A DNA stretch of 41,704 bases from an uncultured archaeon (GTDB lineage: Archaea; Nanobdellota; Nanobdellia; Woesearchaeales; UBA583), in NCBI GenBank assembly GCA_937138345.1, contig CAKZOW010000058.1, positions 1 to 41,704 of the forward strand. Direction: 5' to 3'. Below, in pieces: positions 10,184 to 33,836 of this stretch (position 1 is its first letter; every line of letters starts with the position of its first letter). The notes under the pieces were generated by a model that was given only the letters and a program-made list of their open reading frames with translations, made no database searches and was not told where the DNA came from. A program made the position numbers and the translations under genes.

Positions 10184-11014
10184 ATGGAAGCAAGAGAGCT
10201 AGATTTAATTTTAAAAACAATTCAAACCGAAGTAAAACTAAGAGGTTTTTCAAAGGCAACAGTTAAATCTTATGTTCTCTACAATAAAAAATTTCTAGAA
10301 TTTATTGAAAAGAAACCTAATGAAATTATTGAACAAGATGTCAAACTCTATCTTGCAGAGAGACTCGATGATGGTTTAAGTACAAAATCACTAGCACTAA
10401 TTAAGGCAGCTCTAGCTTTTTATTATAATGAAATTTTAGGAAATAAGTTTGAGATTAAAACACCAAAAATAAAAAAATCAACACCAGTTGTTCTGACAAA
10501 ACAAGAAGTATCTATGTTATTTTCCCATATTAAAAATCCACAATATCTGCTTATGCTTCAGATGTATTATGCCTGTGGTCTTCGTTTATCAGAATGTATT
10601 ACTCTTAAGGTAAAAGATATTGATACTTTGGAAAATGTAGTTTGGGTTAGAGATGGTAAGGGAGGTAAAGATAGGATGAGTATTTTATCTAAGAATTTAT
10701 CTCAATCATTGAAAAATCACATAGAATCATCAGGTAAGAAAAAAGATTCTTTTCTTTTTGTAAATAGATATGGTAATCCATTTAATCCAAGAACAATTCA
10801 AAAAGTAATTGAAAAGGCAAAACATGATTCTGGGATTCACAAAGACGTCCATATCCATACGCTTCGTCATTCATTTGCTACACATCTTTTAGAAGCCGGA
10901 ACTGACATAAGACACATCCAAGAATTACTTGGCCACTCAGATTTATCTACTACTCAAATCTATACTACCGTCTCAAATCAAGAACTAAAAAAAATCAAAT
11001 CACCACTTGATTAA
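10184..11014 (+). CDS. xerA: Tyrosine recombinase XerA
   Basis: CGLRLSEC, HTLRHSFATHLLEAGTDIRHIQELLGHSDLSTTQIYTTVS. Confidence 0.9.
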   Translation: MEARELDLILKTIQTEVKLRGFSKATVKSYVLYNKKFLEFIEKKPNEIIEQDVKLYLAERLDDGLSTKSLALIKAALAFYYNEILGNKFEIKTPKIKKSTPVVLTKQEVSMLFSHIKNPQYLLMLQMYYACGLRLSECITLKVKDIDTLENVVWVRDGKGGKDRMSILSKNLSQSLKNHIESSGKKKDSFLFVNRYGNPFNPRTIQKVIEKAKHDSGIHKDVHIHTLRHSFATHLLEAGTDIRHIQELLGHSDLSTTQIYTTVSNQELKKIKSPLD

Positions 11015-24973: not shown

Positions 24974-25081
24974 TACTCTAGTGGTTTTGTATAATATATA
25001 AGTTTTTTTATTAGTTCTTAGGTTGTCACCAAATAAGAAAGTTTATAAAGGGATTATAGTTTATTTATACTATCCAAGGTT

Positions 25082-25155
25082 GATCCTTTGGTCTAGTTGG
25101 TTATGACGTTGGCCTTACAAGCCGAAGATCCCCGGTTCAAATCCGGGAAGGATCA
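25082..25155 (+). tRNA. tRNA-Val (anticodon UAC), no encoded CCA
   Basis: Acceptor GATCCTT/AAGGATC, D-arm, anticodon arm TTGGC-CTTACAA-GCCGA, T-arm CCCGG-TTCAAAT-CCGGG, discriminator A. Confidence 0.95.
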
Positions 25156-27806
25156 TTTTTTATAAAATTGGGATTACTTAATATAATCTTAGATAGTTCA
25201 CTTAATAATTCTTTCGGTTTCTGATATTCTATTAAATCATTATTTAATTCATCTGAATTACTATTATAACATTTATTTTTAGCCTTCTCATCTAAAAAGT
25301 ATAATTTGAAGTTTGTTCTAAATCTCGAACATGCAGTATAGAGTATATTTTGATTTGTAAGAAGAATCCCTTTTACATTTTCAATTAAAATAAATCCTTC
25401 TTCATATTCTGATCCTTGGGATTTATGAATAGTTATTGCATATGCTGGAACTAAATAGAATGTATCTTTAAAGGGGAATTCAATGATTTGATTATTTAGA
25501 TGTCTTTGAGCTAGAAGAGTTTGATTTTCTTTGTTATATGAGAGTATAGTTAGGTTTTCACCATTAGCTAAGCTATCAAGAGAATAATTATTTTTAGTGT
25601 TCATTACAATATCTCCTATTTTAAACTCATATTGTGATAAGGTTTTTATATTTCTTTGTTTAATATCCTGTTCTAAACACTCTAAATTAACTCTTTTTAC
25701 TAATTCATTGGTATTACATAAGATTTTCTTTCTTTTATCTTTGATTACTTCTTGTGTTATTTCTTGTATTGTTGATTCCTCATAGTCTTCTTCAATACTT
25801 TCTTTATTTTCAATTTGTTTAATGTTCTTCAATATTACACTATTTGATCTATATTGTCCTTCTAATTTGATTTTTGATATATCTTTTATTTTTAGAAGTT
25901 CATAATAGAGAGAGTTTGATTTAAAGTTAGATAATTGTTTTTCATCTCCTAGTAGAAGAATATGTGTTTTAGTAGATAGGGCTTTTAGTATATTATGGAA
26001 TATTTCTTTATCAAGCATAGTAAATTCATCTATAACTAGTATATCTGTATTTAACACATTATTTTCATTATGTTTAAATTTTATTGTTGATCTAGAAAAT
26101 ATATTATTAAATGTCTTATGTATAGTCTTAGCTTCATTAAAGTTTAATTTTTTATTGATATTTGAACAGGCTTGTGCAGTAAAGCAACAATAAGTTATTT
26201 TACATTTATCTCCATATTGTTTATTGAGTTGTTCTAGTATAGTTGTTTTCCCACTTCCTCCATCTCCTGTACATAGTGTGATTTTGTTTCTAAGTGTGGA
26301 ATTAAGTGTTAAAAGTTGTGTTGGGTCAAGAACATAAGCTCCCTCATCTTCCCCCTTTTTGGGCGGGGGGGAAGTTGAGAGGATCTTATTGCTAAGTGAG
26401 GCGCTCGAACTAGAGAGGAGAAGGGCAGACTCTAGGTTTTGTATGAGTTGAGTATATTGTTTTGCTTTTAGTAATGGAATTCTGAGAGGTTCTATTGTTT
26501 CTTTTACATATTTAGAGATAGTTGGATAGTTATGGTTTTTAGTTGATTTAGTAATTTTAGCTTTAAATTTATTATACTCTAGTTCCTTTGTTAAGGGGTT
26601 TTTATATTTAATTGGATCAAATGTTAGGTTAGATGTATTTAGTCCTCCCTGTATTCTCTCAACTTCTTCAAATCTCTTTTCTTCACTTGGTTCTTGTTTA
26701 GTTTTAAGAAAAGGGTATTTTTTATAGAGGTTTTTTGAAAAGTAAGATAATCTAAACTTTTTGTAGGTATTATTGAGAAACTCAATTGTTGAGTTTTCTC
26801 CTTCAAATGATTTGAAGAAGTACTTTAAAACATAATTAACACATTTAGAATAAAACTTATTCTCTTTTAATTCTTGTTTTAAATCAATATTTTTGTAAAT
26901 TTTTGATTCAACTTCCAGTTGTTTTTCTATGATATATGATGGAATAAATCTATTTAGTAGTATATGGAAATGAGGATGTTTATTCTTAGTTGCTTCAACT
27001 ACTAAGAAATATGATCTTTCTTTATCTTGATTTCTTGTTATTACTTCATTAAACCAAATTCTTTTTGATTCTATGAATTCTGAATCATTTAGGAGTTCTT
27101 CCCTTTTTTTTAGGTAGATTTTGTTGTATTCTTGCTCAATTAAGTATTTATTTTGTTTTTTGAACTTGTTTTCTTCTTCTTGTGAGAGTTTCTTTAGATA
27201 TATTCTTTTTTTTATTACAACTTTAGTTACTGCATCCTTTTGAGAAATTTTCTTTATTTGAACATCTACTTCATGTTGAAACCAAGTTTTTAATATTTTT
27301 TCTTTTTTATGTTCTGCTTGTTTTTTTGTTTTATACTTATATCTTGATTTTATCTTGTTTAGATCTAATGATTTATCATACTCATTCATAATATGATTTA
27401 GTTTTTTGAATAAAATTGATGTTTCTAAGGTTATTTGTGCATTTAAAATAATTTTATATGGGATTTTAAGTTTATTCTTAGTTAGGTGTTTTGTTATTAT
27501 ATCCTTTCTTTGTAAGTTAATTGGTTGTGTTGTCAAGGTTAGAAAAAAACTAAAATCTTCTTGAGGTGAGATAATATTTAGCTTAGATCTTAAAAGTTCA
27601 GCTTTCTGAGAAGAACACTCTTCACAATTCCATGAATTACATTTTACTTGAAATGGGATAAATTCATTGGTTTTTTTATCCAGTAAAATGATAATTTGTG
27701 TAGAGCATTGAGTTGATTGAAATTTAGATTTATTGTAGAAAGATCTAGATTTATTGAAATAGTCAAGTTCTAGATTGTTATTTTGAGTTAGAAAGTTTTT
27801 ATACAT
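25137..27806 (-). CDS. HUH-type rolling-circle Rep fused to SF1B (RecD2/Pif1-like) helicase
   Basis: N-terminal CNSWNCEEC Zn-like motif, FFLTLTTQP (motif 1), HPHFHILLN (HUH motif 2), YSKCVNYVLKYF (motif 3); C-terminal GDGGSGKTT, LVIDEFTML, LLGDEKQL, GQYRSN, AITIHKSQGSEYE. Confidence 0.85.
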   Translation of the reverse strand: MYKNFLTQNNNLELDYFNKSRSFYNKSKFQSTQCSTQIIILLDKKTNEFIPFQVKCNSWNCEECSSQKAELLRSKLNIISPQEDFSFFLTLTTQPINLQRKDIITKHLTKNKLKIPYKIILNAQITLETSILFKKLNHIMNEYDKSLDLNKIKSRYKYKTKKQAEHKKEKILKTWFQHEVDVQIKKISQKDAVTKVVIKKRIYLKKLSQEEENKFKKQNKYLIEQEYNKIYLKKREELLNDSEFIESKRIWFNEVITRNQDKERSYFLVVEATKNKHPHFHILLNRFIPSYIIEKQLEVESKIYKNIDLKQELKENKFYSKCVNYVLKYFFKSFEGENSTIEFLNNTYKKFRLSYFSKNLYKKYPFLKTKQEPSEEKRFEEVERIQGGLNTSNLTFDPIKYKNPLTKELEYNKFKAKITKSTKNHNYPTISKYVKETIEPLRIPLLKAKQYTQLIQNLESALLLSSSSASLSNKILSTSPPPKKGEDEGAYVLDPTQLLTLNSTLRNKITLCTGDGGSGKTTILEQLNKQYGDKCKITYCCFTAQACSNINKKLNFNEAKTIHKTFNNIFSRSTIKFKHNENNVLNTDILVIDEFTMLDKEIFHNILKALSTKTHILLLGDEKQLSNFKSNSLYYELLKIKDISKIKLEGQYRSNSVILKNIKQIENKESIEEDYEESTIQEITQEVIKDKRKKILCNTNELVKRVNLECLEQDIKQRNIKTLSQYEFKIGDIVMNTKNNYSLDSLANGENLTILSYNKENQTLLAQRHLNNQIIEFPFKDTFYLVPAYAITIHKSQGSEYEEGFILIENVKGILLTNQNILYTACSRFRTNFKLYFLDEKAKNKCYNSNSDELNNDLIEYQKPKELLSELSKIILSNPNFIKNDPSRI
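26343..26379. repeat. GC-rich inverted repeat inside the rep-helicase linker
   Basis: CTCATCTTCCCCC - TTTTTGGGCGG - GGGGGAAGTTGAG, 12/13 arm match. Confidence 0.85.
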
Positions 27807-27841
27807 CCCTTTAATGGATATATTGCATAGTAAAAAGGTTT

Positions 27842-27886
27842 GTAGTAACCCTTGTTTTGTTATAGGTAATCCCTATGGGTTACTAC
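27842..27886. promoter_or_regulatory. Nested inverted repeat upstream of rep-helicase (candidate origin or operator)
   Basis: GTAGTAACCC ... GGGTTACTAC perfect 10-bp arms, with inner ATAGG-TAATC-CCTAT. Confidence 0.65.
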
Positions 27887-27926
27887 TTCTCTTTTATTTG
27901 AAATTAAATGATATTTTTTAATTTAA

Positions 27927-28306
27927 TTATCTCTCCCAATAATTTACTTTTATTATTTCTTTTTCTGATTTATATTTAATAACATCTCTATAATATGTTT
28001 TTTCTATATATCTTGTTTTTGCAACATCTTTGCATTCTTCATATAATTCTTTAACATCATTATTTTTAAAAGCGTTAAATCCTTTAACTAAATTTTCTCC
28101 TAAACTTAAACTTATATCTGTTTCACACTCTTCTACATAATATACTTGGGGTTCTCTTTGTGTATAACTTTCCTTTGCTGTATATGGTGTACTTGTTTAT
28201 ATTCTGTCTTTTCAAATAATGGTAAGTAACTAACTATAAATCCTATTCCTACTATACTTAATAGTATAAACGTAAATGTTAAAATTTCTTTTAATTCTTT
28301 ATTCAT
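27927..28306 (-). pseudogene. Frameshifted TM-anchored small protein gene in the element
   Basis: Frame 1: MNKELKEILTFTFILLSIVGIGFIVSYLPLFEKTEYK...; other frame continues TSTPYTAKESYTQREPQVYYVEECETDISLSLGENLVKGFNAFKNNDVKELYEECKDVAKTRYIEKTYYRDVIKYKSEKEIIKVNYWER*. 380 nt, not a multiple of 3. Confidence 0.7.
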
Positions 28307-28392
28307 ATTCTACTACGTGTTTTTTAATTTATATAAGTTATTCTTTTTAATTAAAACTTAATCTTTATAAAAATTAAAATTTATTTACTTGT

Positions 28393-29268
28393 ATGGATTA
28401 TGTTAAAAAAATTTTAGAAAAAAACCTTATTGAAAAAGAAAATTTACTGATTCCAGAAATTTTTTTTGAAAATGATTCCTTAAAAGAATTAAATAGAGTT
28501 TTGAGTACTAAGAATATAAATTCTTTAGCATCATTCTTTAAAAATTCTTCTGAGAAAAACTTAAATATTCCTTTTTTTAAAGATATAGAAAAAGAATTAA
28601 AAATAAAGAGAGTCCTTAAAAGTGAGGATTTAGAATTAATTAAAAATATTTCAGAAGTTGGTGTTTGCGATAGTAATACTTTTTTTAAAATGTTAGGAAT
28701 TTTAAATCACATTTCATTTCTTTTTGATACTATTGAAGAGAAGAAATATCCTGAAGTAGTAAAATCAACTTTAATGTTGTGGTCTTATCAAATGGTTTAT
28801 GAAATGATTTCAACTATTTTTTCAGGATATGTTTATGATTATGCAAGTAGCGATAAGATAAAAAATAAAAGTTTTTTAAAAAATTTTAAGGATAATAAAC
28901 ATCCTCCATTAGGAACATTATTGCTTTTTCTAAAAAAGAATAAAATAATTTCTAATAGAAATTACTTTTTTGAAAATATTAAAAGAAATGGAATTGCTCA
29001 TGGGAATATTTACTTTGATCCTTATAAGAATATTTTTATTTCTTCAATAGGGAAAGAGTTAAATTATTTGGATTTTATGAAGGATTTAAAATATTCCTAT
29101 GAAATTTTAATGGAATTTATATTATTAGTTAATGGTAATTCATATAACCTTAGAGAGGATATGTTACTTGGTTTTAAAGCATTAGCAAATAATTTGGTTG
29201 GTCTAAGTAGAGTTTCAATCGCTAGAGATGCATATGTGGATTTTATTTCAGATTTAGAAAAAAATTAA
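28393..29268 (+). CDS. HEPN-like protein (putative element cargo)
   Basis: Helical C-terminal region with Rx4H: ENIKRNGIAHGNIYFDP. Confidence 0.5.
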   Translation: MDYVKKILEKNLIEKENLLIPEIFFENDSLKELNRVLSTKNINSLASFFKNSSEKNLNIPFFKDIEKELKIKRVLKSEDLELIKNISEVGVCDSNTFFKMLGILNHISFLFDTIEEKKYPEVVKSTLMLWSYQMVYEMISTIFSGYVYDYASSDKIKNKSFLKNFKDNKHPPLGTLLLFLKKNKIISNRNYFFENIKRNGIAHGNIYFDPYKNIFISSIGKELNYLDFMKDLKYSYEILMEFILLVNGNSYNLREDMLLGFKALANNLVGLSRVSIARDAYVDFISDLEKN

Positions 29269-29321
29269 TTCTTTGCTTTTTCGCCACATGGTAGCTATAA
29301 ATATAATCAAGTTAAGTAGTA

Positions 29322-29360
29322 GTCTTTTTTCTCTCGGCAAGCCGTGAGAAGAAAAAAGAC
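29322..29360. terminator. Strong bidirectional terminator hairpin between convergent genes
   Basis: GTCTTTTTTCTCTCGGC-AA-GCCGTGAGAAGAAAAAAGAC. Confidence 0.75.
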
Positions 29361-29367
29361 ATAAAAT

Positions 29368-29841
29368 TTACTCATATTTTTTTATGGAACACATTTTCAA
29401 ATTTTTTAATAATGAGTAATTACTATATAATAAAATTCCTAATGCTAAAAATTTTAATTCTAATCCATACCATGGAAGAAAAGATATCAAAGAACCCAAT
29501 CCCAAATATGAAGCCAAAGTTAGAGAACATGATGCACATCCTGCAACTAGTAGACTTAAAAAAGAACTTCCTCCTGAAAAAATATTATGTTTTAGTGATA
29601 AAGTATTAAATAAAATAAATCTATATATTGTAATAGAAATAAATAAACTAAATAATATTGAAATTAGAAGTTGTATGCTTAATTGAAATAACAAATAGTA
29701 AGTGCCATAATTTCCTCTTATTAATGGAATGTTTGTAAATAAAAGAAAAATATACATTGTTAAAAGAAAAGAAATTATAAAAATAACTATTGAATACCAT
29801 TTCTTAAAAAGTTCAATAAAATTTAAAATTAAGCTAGTCAT
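29368..29841 (-). CDS. Membrane protein with GCASC motif, linked to multicopper oxidase
   Basis: Four or more TM helices; LLVAGCASCSLTLASYLGLGSL; 6 nt from the MCO gene on the same strand. Confidence 0.65.
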   Translation of the reverse strand: MTSLILNFIELFKKWYSIVIFIISFLLTMYIFLLFTNIPLIRGNYGTYYLLFQLSIQLLISILFSLFISITIYRFILFNTLSLKHNIFSGGSSFLSLLVAGCASCSLTLASYLGLGSLISFLPWYGLELKFLALGILLYSNYSLLKNLKMCSIKKYE

Positions 29842-29847
29842 CTTATA

Positions 29848-31689
29848 TTATTTAACATTAAATTTCATCATCATTCCAGCTTCTAAATGTTCTGCAATGT
29901 GACAATGTACCATCCACTCTCCAGGGTTTGTAACATCAAGTAAGATATCAATACTAGACCCAACTGGAACTAATACTGTATCTTTCCAAACAAGGTTATC
30001 ATTAATTTCTCCATCTTTTTCAAGAACTAAAAACCTTTGACCATGAAAATGAATTGGGTGTTGCATAGGATGAGCGGAATTAGGATCATTATATAATCTT
30101 ATTTTAACTTTATCACCAACATTAAAATCTAAATTTATATCCATATTTTCTTTTTTAGATGTTGAATCTCTTAAAATCCATTCAATATTTTCACTTGATG
30201 ACATTGAATTCATCATCTCCATTTCATCTTCCCATTCAAATTTCATCTTATGAGGTTCTTCTTCATGATCTTCATCTAAATATTGAGAACATTCCACCAT
30301 TTGTGGCATCATTTCACAATGTTCAATTTTTTCTTCTTCAGATAAACCCTCAAGCATAGACATACCTCCCATATTCATTTCTACGCTCAAATCTATTTGA
30401 ACATCAATTTCCTTATCAAAATAAGATCTAAAATTATTGATATCTTCAATAACATAAGAATTTTCTCTAAGTGATAAAAATTCAGAGGAATAATCGTTTT
30501 GAGATTTTTCATCTAAAACATTGACAGATCCAATAGTATATTCTTTATTTGGGTTAATATGTTTTATTTCAAACTTACCTGAATTTTCAAAATAGGCTTC
30601 AATAGTATATCTTTGAGCAGGAGCAATAATCATTGAGTTGATATATTCTTCTTTCTCATAGGAGCCTATATCTCCCCCAATTAATTTAAATTGTACTCCA
30701 GGAATTGAAAAGTTAAACATTCTAGTATTTGCAACATTTGTTATATAGAATCTAGATACATCTCCTTTATTAACTTCAAGAGTATAATCATCATCTCCAT
30801 TAATTAACATTATGTTACCGAATCTTCCCATTAATGTTCTTGTAGCGTGGCCTTCATAAAAAGGTTCAACATCTCCATTTTCAATTAATATATCATCAAG
30901 AATTAAAGGGATTTCTTTATTTACATTATTGTAATAATCATCATATTTGGAATCAACTAACATATTTCCATATAAACCTAATTCCTGTTGAATATCTTCC
31001 CTTACATGTGGATGATACCAATAAATACCTTCATCTGGGAAGTCTAGTTTATATTCAAAACTATCTCCAGGTAATTGAACATCCATTGTGGAACCTGGAA
31101 CTCCATCATTTTCATTTTCAAGTCTTAAACCATGCCAATGAACTGTTGTTTCCATATCTAAGTTATTTGTTACATTAACATGAATTGTCGCATCTTGTTC
31201 TACTCTTAAAAGAGGTCCAGGTATTTGTCCATCATAACCAAACATTCTAATTTCTTGCCCTGCAATTTCTTTTTTTATAATATCAATTGACAAATCGATA
31301 GAATCTCCATCTTTCAAATTATAAATTTGAGTCTCTTCTGCAGTTGAAAGGCCTTCAATAGATCTTGAAATTTGATTTGAATCTTTCTTCATCATAGTAT
31401 CCATGTTATGATTCATATTCATTTTTTCTTTTTTATTTTCACACATAGACATAGATGGCATCATTTCACAACCTTCCTGGATTTGTGTTTCTGATAATAT
31501 TATACCTTCATATTGTTCACAACCAGGCATCTCCATTTCTTGACAATGTAATATCATCATTAAATCTGAAGGTGAATACTCTTCAGGAACACTTTCTTTA
31601 ACTCCATTTTCAGTTTGAATTGAAGTACTACATGCTGCTAGAAATAGAAGCATAATACCAGCTATTGAAAACACTTTTATCTGTTTCAT
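29848..31689 (-). CDS. Multicopper oxidase, predicted lipoprotein (copper resistance-type)
   Basis: FLAACST lipobox; TTVHWHGLR; IYWYHPHVREDIQ; HPMQHPIHFHGQRF; WMVHCHIAEHLEAGMMM. Confidence 0.93.
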   Translation of the reverse strand: MKQIKVFSIAGIMLLFLAACSTSIQTENGVKESVPEEYSPSDLMMILHCQEMEMPGCEQYEGIILSETQIQEGCEMMPSMSMCENKKEKMNMNHNMDTMMKKDSNQISRSIEGLSTAEETQIYNLKDGDSIDLSIDIIKKEIAGQEIRMFGYDGQIPGPLLRVEQDATIHVNVTNNLDMETTVHWHGLRLENENDGVPGSTMDVQLPGDSFEYKLDFPDEGIYWYHPHVREDIQQELGLYGNMLVDSKYDDYYNNVNKEIPLILDDILIENGDVEPFYEGHATRTLMGRFGNIMLINGDDDYTLEVNKGDVSRFYITNVANTRMFNFSIPGVQFKLIGGDIGSYEKEEYINSMIIAPAQRYTIEAYFENSGKFEIKHINPNKEYTIGSVNVLDEKSQNDYSSEFLSLRENSYVIEDINNFRSYFDKEIDVQIDLSVEMNMGGMSMLEGLSEEEKIEHCEMMPQMVECSQYLDEDHEEEPHKMKFEWEDEMEMMNSMSSSENIEWILRDSTSKKENMDINLDFNVGDKVKIRLYNDPNSAHPMQHPIHFHGQRFLVLEKDGEINDNLVWKDTVLVPVGSSIDILLDVTNPGEWMVHCHIAEHLEAGMMMKFNVK

Positions 31690-31704
31690 AATAGTATCAT
31701 TAGA

Positions 31705-31736
31705 TGAAACTATACTTATATATTAGTGAAACTATA
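31705..31736. promoter_or_regulatory. Candidate operator: two direct repeats TGAAACTATA, 22 bp apart
   Basis: 31705-31714 and 31727-31736 in the divergent intergenic region between MCO and the wHTH gene. Confidence 0.6.
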
Positions 31737-31761
31737 TAAATTAAGTATGAATTAATATATT

Positions 31762-32238
31762 ATGAAAAAAGTTGTAAAAGATGTTATATATTTCTCAGTA
31801 ATGAGCTTATTTTTTATACTCTTATCACTAACAGTTGTATCCTTTTATTTTATAGGGATTGAGGAAGTACCTTATATTATAGATATTTTTGTGAAATATC
31901 ATGTATTATTTATGTTTCTTAATGCAATTCTTGGTCTTGTTTTTGGTTTTTTATCTTATTTTTTTTTAAATGCTAAAATCAATAAAAATAAAAAAGAAAT
32001 GAAACACACAATTTCAATTCTTTTAGATCTTCTTCAAAGCGAAGAGAAAAAAATAATTTCTTTTCTGTTAAATAATAAAGGAGTTGCTACACAATATGAA
32101 CTTACAAAAATAGAAAATATGACTAAATTGAAAGTTCATAGATGTTTAGAAAAATTAGAAAGAAAAAATATTATAACTAAAGAAAAGTTAGGAAAAATAA
32201 ATAAAATTTATTTAAATAAAGAAATTATTGTCCAATAA
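31762..32238 (+). CDS. Membrane-anchored winged-HTH regulator
   Basis: Two N-terminal TM segments, then EEKKIISFLLNNKGVATQYELTKIENMTKLKVHRCLEKLERKNIITKEKLGKINKIYLN. Confidence 0.75.
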   Translation: MKKVVKDVIYFSVMSLFFILLSLTVVSFYFIGIEEVPYIIDIFVKYHVLFMFLNAILGLVFGFLSYFFLNAKINKNKKEMKHTISILLDLLQSEEKKIISFLLNNKGVATQYELTKIENMTKLKVHRCLEKLERKNIITKEKLGKINKIYLNKEIIVQ

Positions 32239-33757
32239 AATTAATTTCTTCCTCAATTTCTTTTTCAACTTTATAATTGATTATACCTCCATGTATGATC
32301 AAGTGTAACATCATATGCTCAAAATCTTTGAATGTTTTAATATTTGCTTTAGATAGCTCTTCTTTCACATCTCTAGAGAATGAGTTCCACATTTTATAGA
32401 ATATTACTGCACCTGCTTTAAATACTAAGCTTTTAGATGTTTGTGTTATTGTGACATGTTCTTCTAGTTCATCTTCCCATTCAAGTATTTCCTTATAGAA
32501 AAGACTATTCTCTTTAATATATTGGTAGTTAGAGTGTGTAATTGAAGGTAATGTTAATCGTGATCTTTCTTTAGAGTTCTTTAAAACAATATGTTGTGTA
32601 TGCTTTTTTTCTAGATGATTAATTGCTTTTTGCTCTTTCAACATATTTCTTATTTTTCCCAGTTCCTCTTTTATTTCTTGGTTTTCACCTTTAACTTCTT
32701 TAACTTCTCCTTTCAGTTCATCATTTTCAACTTCATATTTCTGTATTTCATCTTTTTTCATACCTTCTCTAATTTTAGTTTTCCCTAAGGTTCTTTTAAG
32801 AAAATATCTTCCTGCAACCTTCGAATTCTCTCCCCATCCAAATTTATAGTTAAATTGCTGCATACTCATTTCAGAAAACGATGCAAAATATGTTGCAGAT
32901 GAGTGTCTCAGCTTATGGGATGTTACCCATGAAAACTCCTCGCCTAAAATTTCTTTAGCATATCTTTTTAATTTTTTATTAAGGGTCTGTAATGTTGCTG
33001 GACTTCCATCTTTAAATGATAAAACGTAATCTTCTTTTCCAATTGATTTATTTTTTTTAAGAATCTCATTAATAAAGTATTCAATTTGTGGTTTAAGTAC
33101 AACAATTTCCATATCTCTTCGTCTTGTTTTTAATTTAGGTAGTGCCACATAAAGGTCTTCTCCTTTTTCATATGAGAAGCTTTTTAGTCTTAATGATCTA
33201 ATATCTTGAGATCTACAACCTGTTGAAAACATGAATGCAAGAAAAAATTTGATTATTTCATCTTTTTCGGGTATATTATTAAGTATTTTTTTAATATCCT
33301 CATATGATAAAACGGGTTGATCAAAATCAATTTCATCTTCCTTTATAGTTATTTCTCCAAGTCTTTCTTCTCTTTTTGCCCTACCTAATAGGATTGTTAA
33401 ATATGCTCTAATAAACCTTAAATAATTATTTGCAGTACTATTTGAATAAGGATTTCCATCTTTGTTAAGAAAATCTCCTTCTCTTAGATTAGATACTAGA
33501 TCCATGTAATCATCTTCATCGATGTCTTTAATTCTCTTATTTGGAAAAAACTGAGTACAAAATTTATTAAAATATGAAGATACATTAACAAGTCTACCAT
33601 ATGAAACTTCTTTTTTATATTGTAACTTTTTAATATATCTATCAAAGTCTTCTTTATTTTCATCTGAAATTTCAGTTGAATTCATAACTTTGTTAAAGCT
33701 TGCTTTAAATCTTTTTTTATCTTTGTCTATATCATGTTGATTTGGTTTGTCTGCCAT
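32225..33757 (-). CDS. Tyrosine integrase of the element
   Basis: FSTGCRSQDIRSLRL, SHKLRHSSATYF, FGWGENSKVAGRYFLKR; coiled-coil and extra C-terminal region. Confidence 0.88.
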   Translation of the reverse strand: MADKPNQHDIDKDKKRFKASFNKVMNSTEISDENKEDFDRYIKKLQYKKEVSYGRLVNVSSYFNKFCTQFFPNKRIKDIDEDDYMDLVSNLREGDFLNKDGNPYSNSTANNYLRFIRAYLTILLGRAKREERLGEITIKEDEIDFDQPVLSYEDIKKILNNIPEKDEIIKFFLAFMFSTGCRSQDIRSLRLKSFSYEKGEDLYVALPKLKTRRRDMEIVVLKPQIEYFINEILKKNKSIGKEDYVLSFKDGSPATLQTLNKKLKRYAKEILGEEFSWVTSHKLRHSSATYFASFSEMSMQQFNYKFGWGENSKVAGRYFLKRTLGKTKIREGMKKDEIQKYEVENDELKGEVKEVKGENQEIKEELGKIRNMLKEQKAINHLEKKHTQHIVLKNSKERSRLTLPSITHSNYQYIKENSLFYKEILEWEDELEEHVTITQTSKSLVFKAGAVIFYKMWNSFSRDVKEELSKANIKTFKDFEHMMLHLIIHGGIINYKVEKEIEEEINFIGQ

Positions 33758-33823
33758 TTTAGTAATAGTATATCGTTATTTGTTATATACTTTAGCAGTA
33801 ACCCCTCTTATTACATCGGTAAC

Positions 33824-33836
33824 CCGGGAAGGATCA
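33824..33836 (+). repeat. Distal att site (copy of tRNA-Val 3' end)
   Basis: CCGGGAAGGATCA identical to 25143-25155. Confidence 0.88.

Follow-up and report, generated by a model that had tools for sequence, protein, structure and literature searches.

A probable 8.7-kb integrative element from a Woesearchaeota-type archaeon: tandem rep and int genes that overlap attP

Does integration of the element described here break up an operon of rep and int and thereby switch the integrase gene off? A preliminary description of the window (the whole 41,704-nt stretch of DNA that was analysed, contig 58 of a 1.8-Mb draft genome) had proposed this, on the grounds that the rep-helicase ORF contains attP at its 3' end. 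The limits of the element are marked by an exact 13-bp direct repeat without further extension, the first copy of which forms the 3' end of a tRNA gene:

25082-25155, plus strand: tRNA-Val (TAC), the integration target, its 3' end restored by the element (Rfam RF00005, 69.4 bits)
25143-25155, plus strand: attL core CCGGGAAGGATCA, exact 13-bp direct repeat
25156-25161, plus strand: T6 run supplied by the element, directly 3' of the tRNA; encodes Lys-Asn on the rep strand
33824-33836, plus strand: attR core CCGGGAAGGATCA, exact 13-bp direct repeat

ARAGORN places tRNA-Val(TAC) at 25081-25156, one base wider on each side than Rfam, and no other 13-mer of this gene recurs in the window. The T6 run is likely to act as the new terminator of the tRNA-Val gene. 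When the ends are joined in silico, a circle of 8,681 bp is obtained. The locus combines the features of a tyrosine recombinase that integrates into tRNA genes: the catalytic residues are present, a repeat of the tRNA 3' end bounds the element, and int adjoins the att site, 66 bp from the attR core. The attP junction of a physical circle was absent from the genome's assembly and from IMG/VR, and no empty integration site was found in five other species of the genus, which contained only diverged tRNA-Val genes. We are probably dealing with an integrative element of 8.7 kb, similar to rolling-circle plasmids, in a Woesearchaeota-type archaeon; its insertion into the 3' end of tRNA-Val is ascribed to its own tyrosine integrase as part of the overall explanation, whose probability is given below.

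The following genes were identified:

25137-27806, minus strand: rep-hel, predicted HUH-type Rep domain plus RecD-like SF1B helicase, 889 aa when integrated and 903 aa when circular (Pfam AAA_19, 4.9e-24; RecD2, 5e-50)
28393-29268, plus strand: cargo ORF of 291 aa without family
29368-29841, minus strand: predicted 157-aa membrane protein, immediately downstream of the multicopper oxidase gene (topology judged by eye)
29848-31689, minus strand: multicopper oxidase, CueO/CopA-like, cargo (Pfam Cu-oxidase_2, 2.9e-31; CueO, 2.1e-46, under the equivalog cut-off)
31762-32238, plus strand: winged-helix regulator (DUF7343) with hydrophobic N-terminus (Pfam, 9.6e-10)
32225-33757, minus strand: tyrosine integrase, 510 aa, with R182, K210, H281, R284, W308 and Y318 conserved (Pfam Phage_integrase, 2.1e-14; alignment)

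The N-terminal region of Rep is HUH-like (Pfam REP_ORF2-G2P, 7.7e-6; 26.6 bits, just below the curated cut-off of 27.8), and the motifs HPHFH and YVLKYFFK, recognised by eye, are of the HUH / YxxxK type. By its sequence, Int is an intact tyrosine recombinase, in which R182, K210, H281, R284 and Y318 are invariant throughout the integrase alignment.

In the integrated state, Rep-Hel comprises 889 aa and ends in ...NDPSRI*. In the circle, its frame runs on through the core to a length of 903 aa, ending in ...NDPSRVTDVIRGVTAKVYNK with the stop codon at 33776-33778, and the ATG of int (33755-33757) follows after 18 nt. Circularisation places rep and int in tandem on one strand, with attP in their overlap and no oligo-T between them. 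In all of this, namely the 13-bp core, the frame across attP, every coordinate and the 18-nt gap, the preliminary description was right. The other two minus-strand frames that enter from the core encounter a stop after 0 and 7 codons. At this base composition, where the frequency of stops is 0.077 per codon, a stretch of 15 or more sense codons arises by chance with a probability of about 30%. Thus, the read-through alone does not exceed chance expectation, whereas the 13-bp att repeat does.

What integration exchanges in Rep is a tail of 15 residues (VTDVIRGVTAKVYNK) for a single Ile. Since the best helicase matches stop near residue 850, this state-dependent tail lies outside the recognised domains, and the view that integration breaks rep was not borne out: only residues beyond the last recognised domain are swapped. 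The circle-specific tail could still alter the stability or activity of Rep-Hel, which would allow the replicon to sense its own state as the repressor of mycobacteriophage BPs does. attP does lie inside the 3' end of the ORF, the C-terminus does differ between the two states, and a parallel is provided by BPs, where integration trims 33 residues (PMC4557955). However, apart from the chance level of the read-through and the position of the tail, the latter is conserved in no relative and there is no evidence for a degron, and we consider this reading very unlikely.

Transcription signals were assessed with promoter and terminator models drawn from 175 kb of this genome, the promoter model being trained on 82 of its genes. 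The longest T run after rep in the circle has at most 4 residues; in this genome, T5 or longer is present at 74% of transcription-unit ends, and T6 or longer at 0% of within-operon junctions. TATA elements peak at -27, which indicates leaderless starts, and a Shine-Dalgarno-like sequence was found upstream of neither int nor rep. The candidate control elements are:

33781-33796, minus strand: TATA-like element GCTAAAGTATATAACA, weak, upstream of int, with TATATAAC at about -32 (1.4 bits, full model)
33797-33804, minus strand: box GGGTTACT at -47 to -40, leaving 40 nt to the int ATG (motif scan)
33818-33825, minus strand: box GGGTTACC, 21 bp from the first int box and overlapping the core by 2 nt (motif scan)
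25171-25178, plus strand: box GGATTACT in the attP arm next to rep (motif scan)
27844-27884, minus strand: array of three boxes upstream of rep (minus 27844, minus 27865, plus 27877), in a strong hairpin

Among the genes of this genome, the TATA-like element of int ranks at 12% (shuffle P = 0.67, full model); scored by its core only, it reaches a rank of 0.33 with a shuffle P of 0.14, which is not significant. That of rep is slightly better (3.9 bits versus 1.4), and the 500 nt that precede int in the integrated element contain no TATA box of at least 5 bits. As judged by these scores, a promoter belonging to int itself is a weak candidate. The leaders of both genes appear first-gene-like rather than operon-internal (leader LLR +3.3 for int and +3.8 for rep), that of int lying at the 45th percentile of first genes and the 89th of internal genes, although the underlying classifier is itself weak, with positive scores for 72% of the first genes and for 37% of the inner ones. 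In these terms, the int leader would suit a leaderless gene with a transcription start of its own.

Taken alone, the weak TATA-like element and the lack of a strong TATA box favour the proposed switch, as does the observation that no T run between the two genes exceeds 4. According to this proposal, int has no useful promoter and depends for its expression entirely on rep transcripts that continue into it in the circle; integration shuts it off, and excision needs another trigger. The 18-nt gap and the common strand agree with this, and circle-only operons or promoters have precedents in SNJ2 (PMC13107129), ICEKp1/ICEclc (PMC13023037) and BPs (PMC4557955). In addition, the gene that precedes int in the circle is codirectional with it in this element and in all six relatives that could be tentatively delimited, none of which shows an overlap of that gene with the core. 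We do not take this codirectionality as significant, and rejected it as a conserved trait, because most of these relatives have a gene bias towards that strand, and because the ends of three of the six, which rest on 11-12 bp or repeated cores, are uncertain.

Relatives also bear on the switch in the opposite sense. Of 16 distant integrase relatives, 7 carry a TATA-like element whose position relative to int is about -30 to -34 (shuffle P <= 0.056). In four loci with an adjacent tRNA (L061, L063, L067 and L077), the TATA-like element lies between tRNA and int and thus on the element side of the crossover. The switch is further disfavoured by the missing Shine-Dalgarno sequence of int, as expected for a leaderless gene, and by the operator-like boxes shared with rep, which survive integration 40 nt upstream of int. 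The earlier proposal that integration takes the control region away from int was not borne out, as the double box and the TATA-like element are both found on that side of the crossover point which remains with int. Co-transcription in the circle is a plausible part of that proposal, given that a terminator and a strong int TATA box are missing, but int keeps an upstream module of its own after integration. A conserved promoter of int close to att had been named as the observation that would speak against a switch. The sequence agrees with it in part: int has its own boxes, a first-gene-like leader and a TATA-like element, as have 7 of 16 distant relatives, but in int itself this element is weak, and no close relative that would show its conservation was found. 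On balance, we regard exclusive control of int by read-through as doubtful.

The boxes share the consensus GGRTTACY, of which the element contains 6 copies against 0.5 expected (0 of 300 simulations reached this), a significance that is overstated because the motif was chosen after the repeat had been seen. In the window, the double box GGNTTAC-N14-GGNTTAC (21-bp spacing) has exactly two occurrences, one before rep and one before int, and a further 133 kb from the genome's other contigs contain none. Its distance to the ATG is 38 nt for rep and 40 nt for int, and the two upstream regions can be aligned without gaps, better than shuffled sequences (P = 0.008). A third, inverted copy is found both at the rep array and at attP; the one at attP (25171) lies beyond the core, towards rep. 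Integration splits the box array of attP, and both int-proximal boxes stay with int. The DNA of the rep-upstream array folds with -11.8 kcal/mol (z = -4.5), a hairpin strength that suggests an operator and/or a replication origin; from its sequence, the array is likely to be the rep operator and/or the origin. attP, unlike the rep upstream region, has no hairpin (z = 0.26). As the only other DNA-binding protein predicted for the element is the cargo regulator, the putative box-binding factor would most likely be Rep or Int.

The overlap could also be without function. In a compact element, the last gene may simply happen to enter attP, and the boxes could be arm sites of Int or iterons of Rep that serve recombination or replication only. 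This would accommodate the chance level of the read-through, the boxes that flank the core on both sides as arm sites would, and the rep-side array with its strong hairpin typical of an origin. However, arm sites or iterons alone are not required to lie at the same distance from the start codons of rep and int, and this explanation appears unlikely to us.

We favour the explanation that rep and int are tandem co-regulated units with attP in their overlap, to which the circle adds an optional read-through, and estimate its probability at roughly one half (0.52). attP would comprise the final codons of rep and, on its opposite side, the sequences that control int. The latter gene would be transcribed from its own short-leader or leaderless start, and one factor binding the double box (GGRTTACY), perhaps Rep or Int, would control both genes. 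In the circle, rep transcription, being unterminated, could additionally enter int. Integration would remove this input and leave int with its control region, would direct rep transcription antisense through tRNA-Val, and would exchange the 15-residue Rep tail for one Ile. Going further, the element might be a DPANN replicon that reads its own state: only the circle would join the rep-int transcript and alter the Rep tail, integrase supply and initiator properties would become state-dependent, and a common box-binding factor would tie rep, int and attP together. We hold this extension to be rather doubtful. The shared double box does predict one factor that controls rep, int and attP.

We know of no study of integrase gene control in DPANN elements, and a review of archaeal tyrosine recombinases makes no mention of DPANN or Woesearchaeota. 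A circle-dependent arrangement of int or rep is already established elsewhere, and the present case varies this known principle, the gene interrupted being a Rep-helicase. In mycobacteriophage BPs, which shows integration-dependent immunity, the ORF that precedes int encodes the repressor and contains attP (PMC4557955 and Broussard et al. 2013 cited there). Like BPs, the present element has attP in the 3' part of a codirectional ORF directly upstream of int, and integration alters the C-terminus of the product and parts int from the upstream promoter. The upstream gene of BPs, however, encodes a repressor, and its 33-residue tail is a degradation tag; here, it encodes an HUH-like Rep plus RecD-like helicase with a tail of 15 residues, in an archaeon, and int has its own control region. 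In the haloarchaeal provirus SNJ2, excision brings int and rep together in one operon and creates a new ORF that spans attP (PMC13107129). Both systems are archaeal, and in both circularisation joins int and replication genes across attP, with new coding sequence at the junction. In SNJ2, however, int is upstream and the rep genes, of another Rep family, are downstream, and the transcript has been mapped, whereas the order here, as deduced from the sequence, is rep then int.

The int promoters of ICEKp1, ICEclc and ICEEc1 switch with state (PMC13023037). As in ICEKp1 and ICEclc, the upstream input to int would differ here between circle and integrated form; there, however, the integrated form uses the tRNA promoter, with tRNA and int on the same strand, whereas here int is at the far end from the tRNA promoter. 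Overlap of att with an autoregulated int promoter is widespread (PMC2951348). KplE1 intS resembles the present case in that the recombination site overlaps the int control region and has repeated protein-binding boxes (PMC2951348), but the boxes here are putative and also occur upstream of rep. If the circle-specific read-through from rep to int is real, it would extend a principle of phages, ICEs and one haloarchaeal virus to a plasmid-like replicon in which the switch gene is the replication initiator.

Close relatives of the whole element were not found. Rep-Hel had none in IMG/VR, in 99 and 353 genomes of the order or in 371 genomes of the phylum, and PLSDB and phages gave no matches beyond the helicase domain. 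One match from the order (G137) covers only residues 787-847 of the helicase, and one from the phylum (G362) was rejected as a low-complexity match in an unrelated protein of 876 aa. Close relatives of int were absent from plasmids and IMG/VR. Distant integrases with about 19-30% identity were found in 25 of the 353 order genomes, this genome included, and at 80 loci in GTDB genomes. About twenty of these distant integrase genes follow a codirectional tRNA gene at a distance of 7-220 nt; in contrast, int is located here at the attR end and in opposite orientation to the tRNA.

Upstream of the rep-helicase gene, three GGRTTACY boxes (window 27844-27884) form a hairpin with a 10-bp inverted repeat (GTAGTAACCC...GGGTTACTAC), which is likely to be a replication origin or an operator. 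At the other end of this gene, the T6 run immediately 3' of the tRNA core (window 25156-25161) is contributed by the element, and its opposite strand codes for the Rep C-terminus. The flank before integration (CTTAATG...) is without this run.

The integrase of the element (window 32225-33757) carries about 190 residues C-terminal to the catalytic tyrosine, including a coiled-coil-like stretch; its relatives are mostly 340-455 aa long. At one relative's locus (L025, 8964-10235), the integrase frame stays open backwards into the tRNA-Leu gene, and its N-terminal frame could thus differ between the circle and the integrated state. At L063/L082 (G338:C15, joined coordinates 30732-32930), one integrase is followed downstream by several copies of the tRNA-Gln 3' end, 14, 12 and 14 bp long, possibly through tandem accretion of elements.

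The cargo of the element includes a multicopper oxidase and a small predicted membrane protein (window 29368-31689), with a winged-helix regulator (31762-32238) close by. Together, these three genes may give this DPANN archaeon a mobile module for responding to copper. Outside the element, the window encodes a second tyrosine recombinase (10184-11014, 276 aa), XerA/XerC-like as judged by eye.
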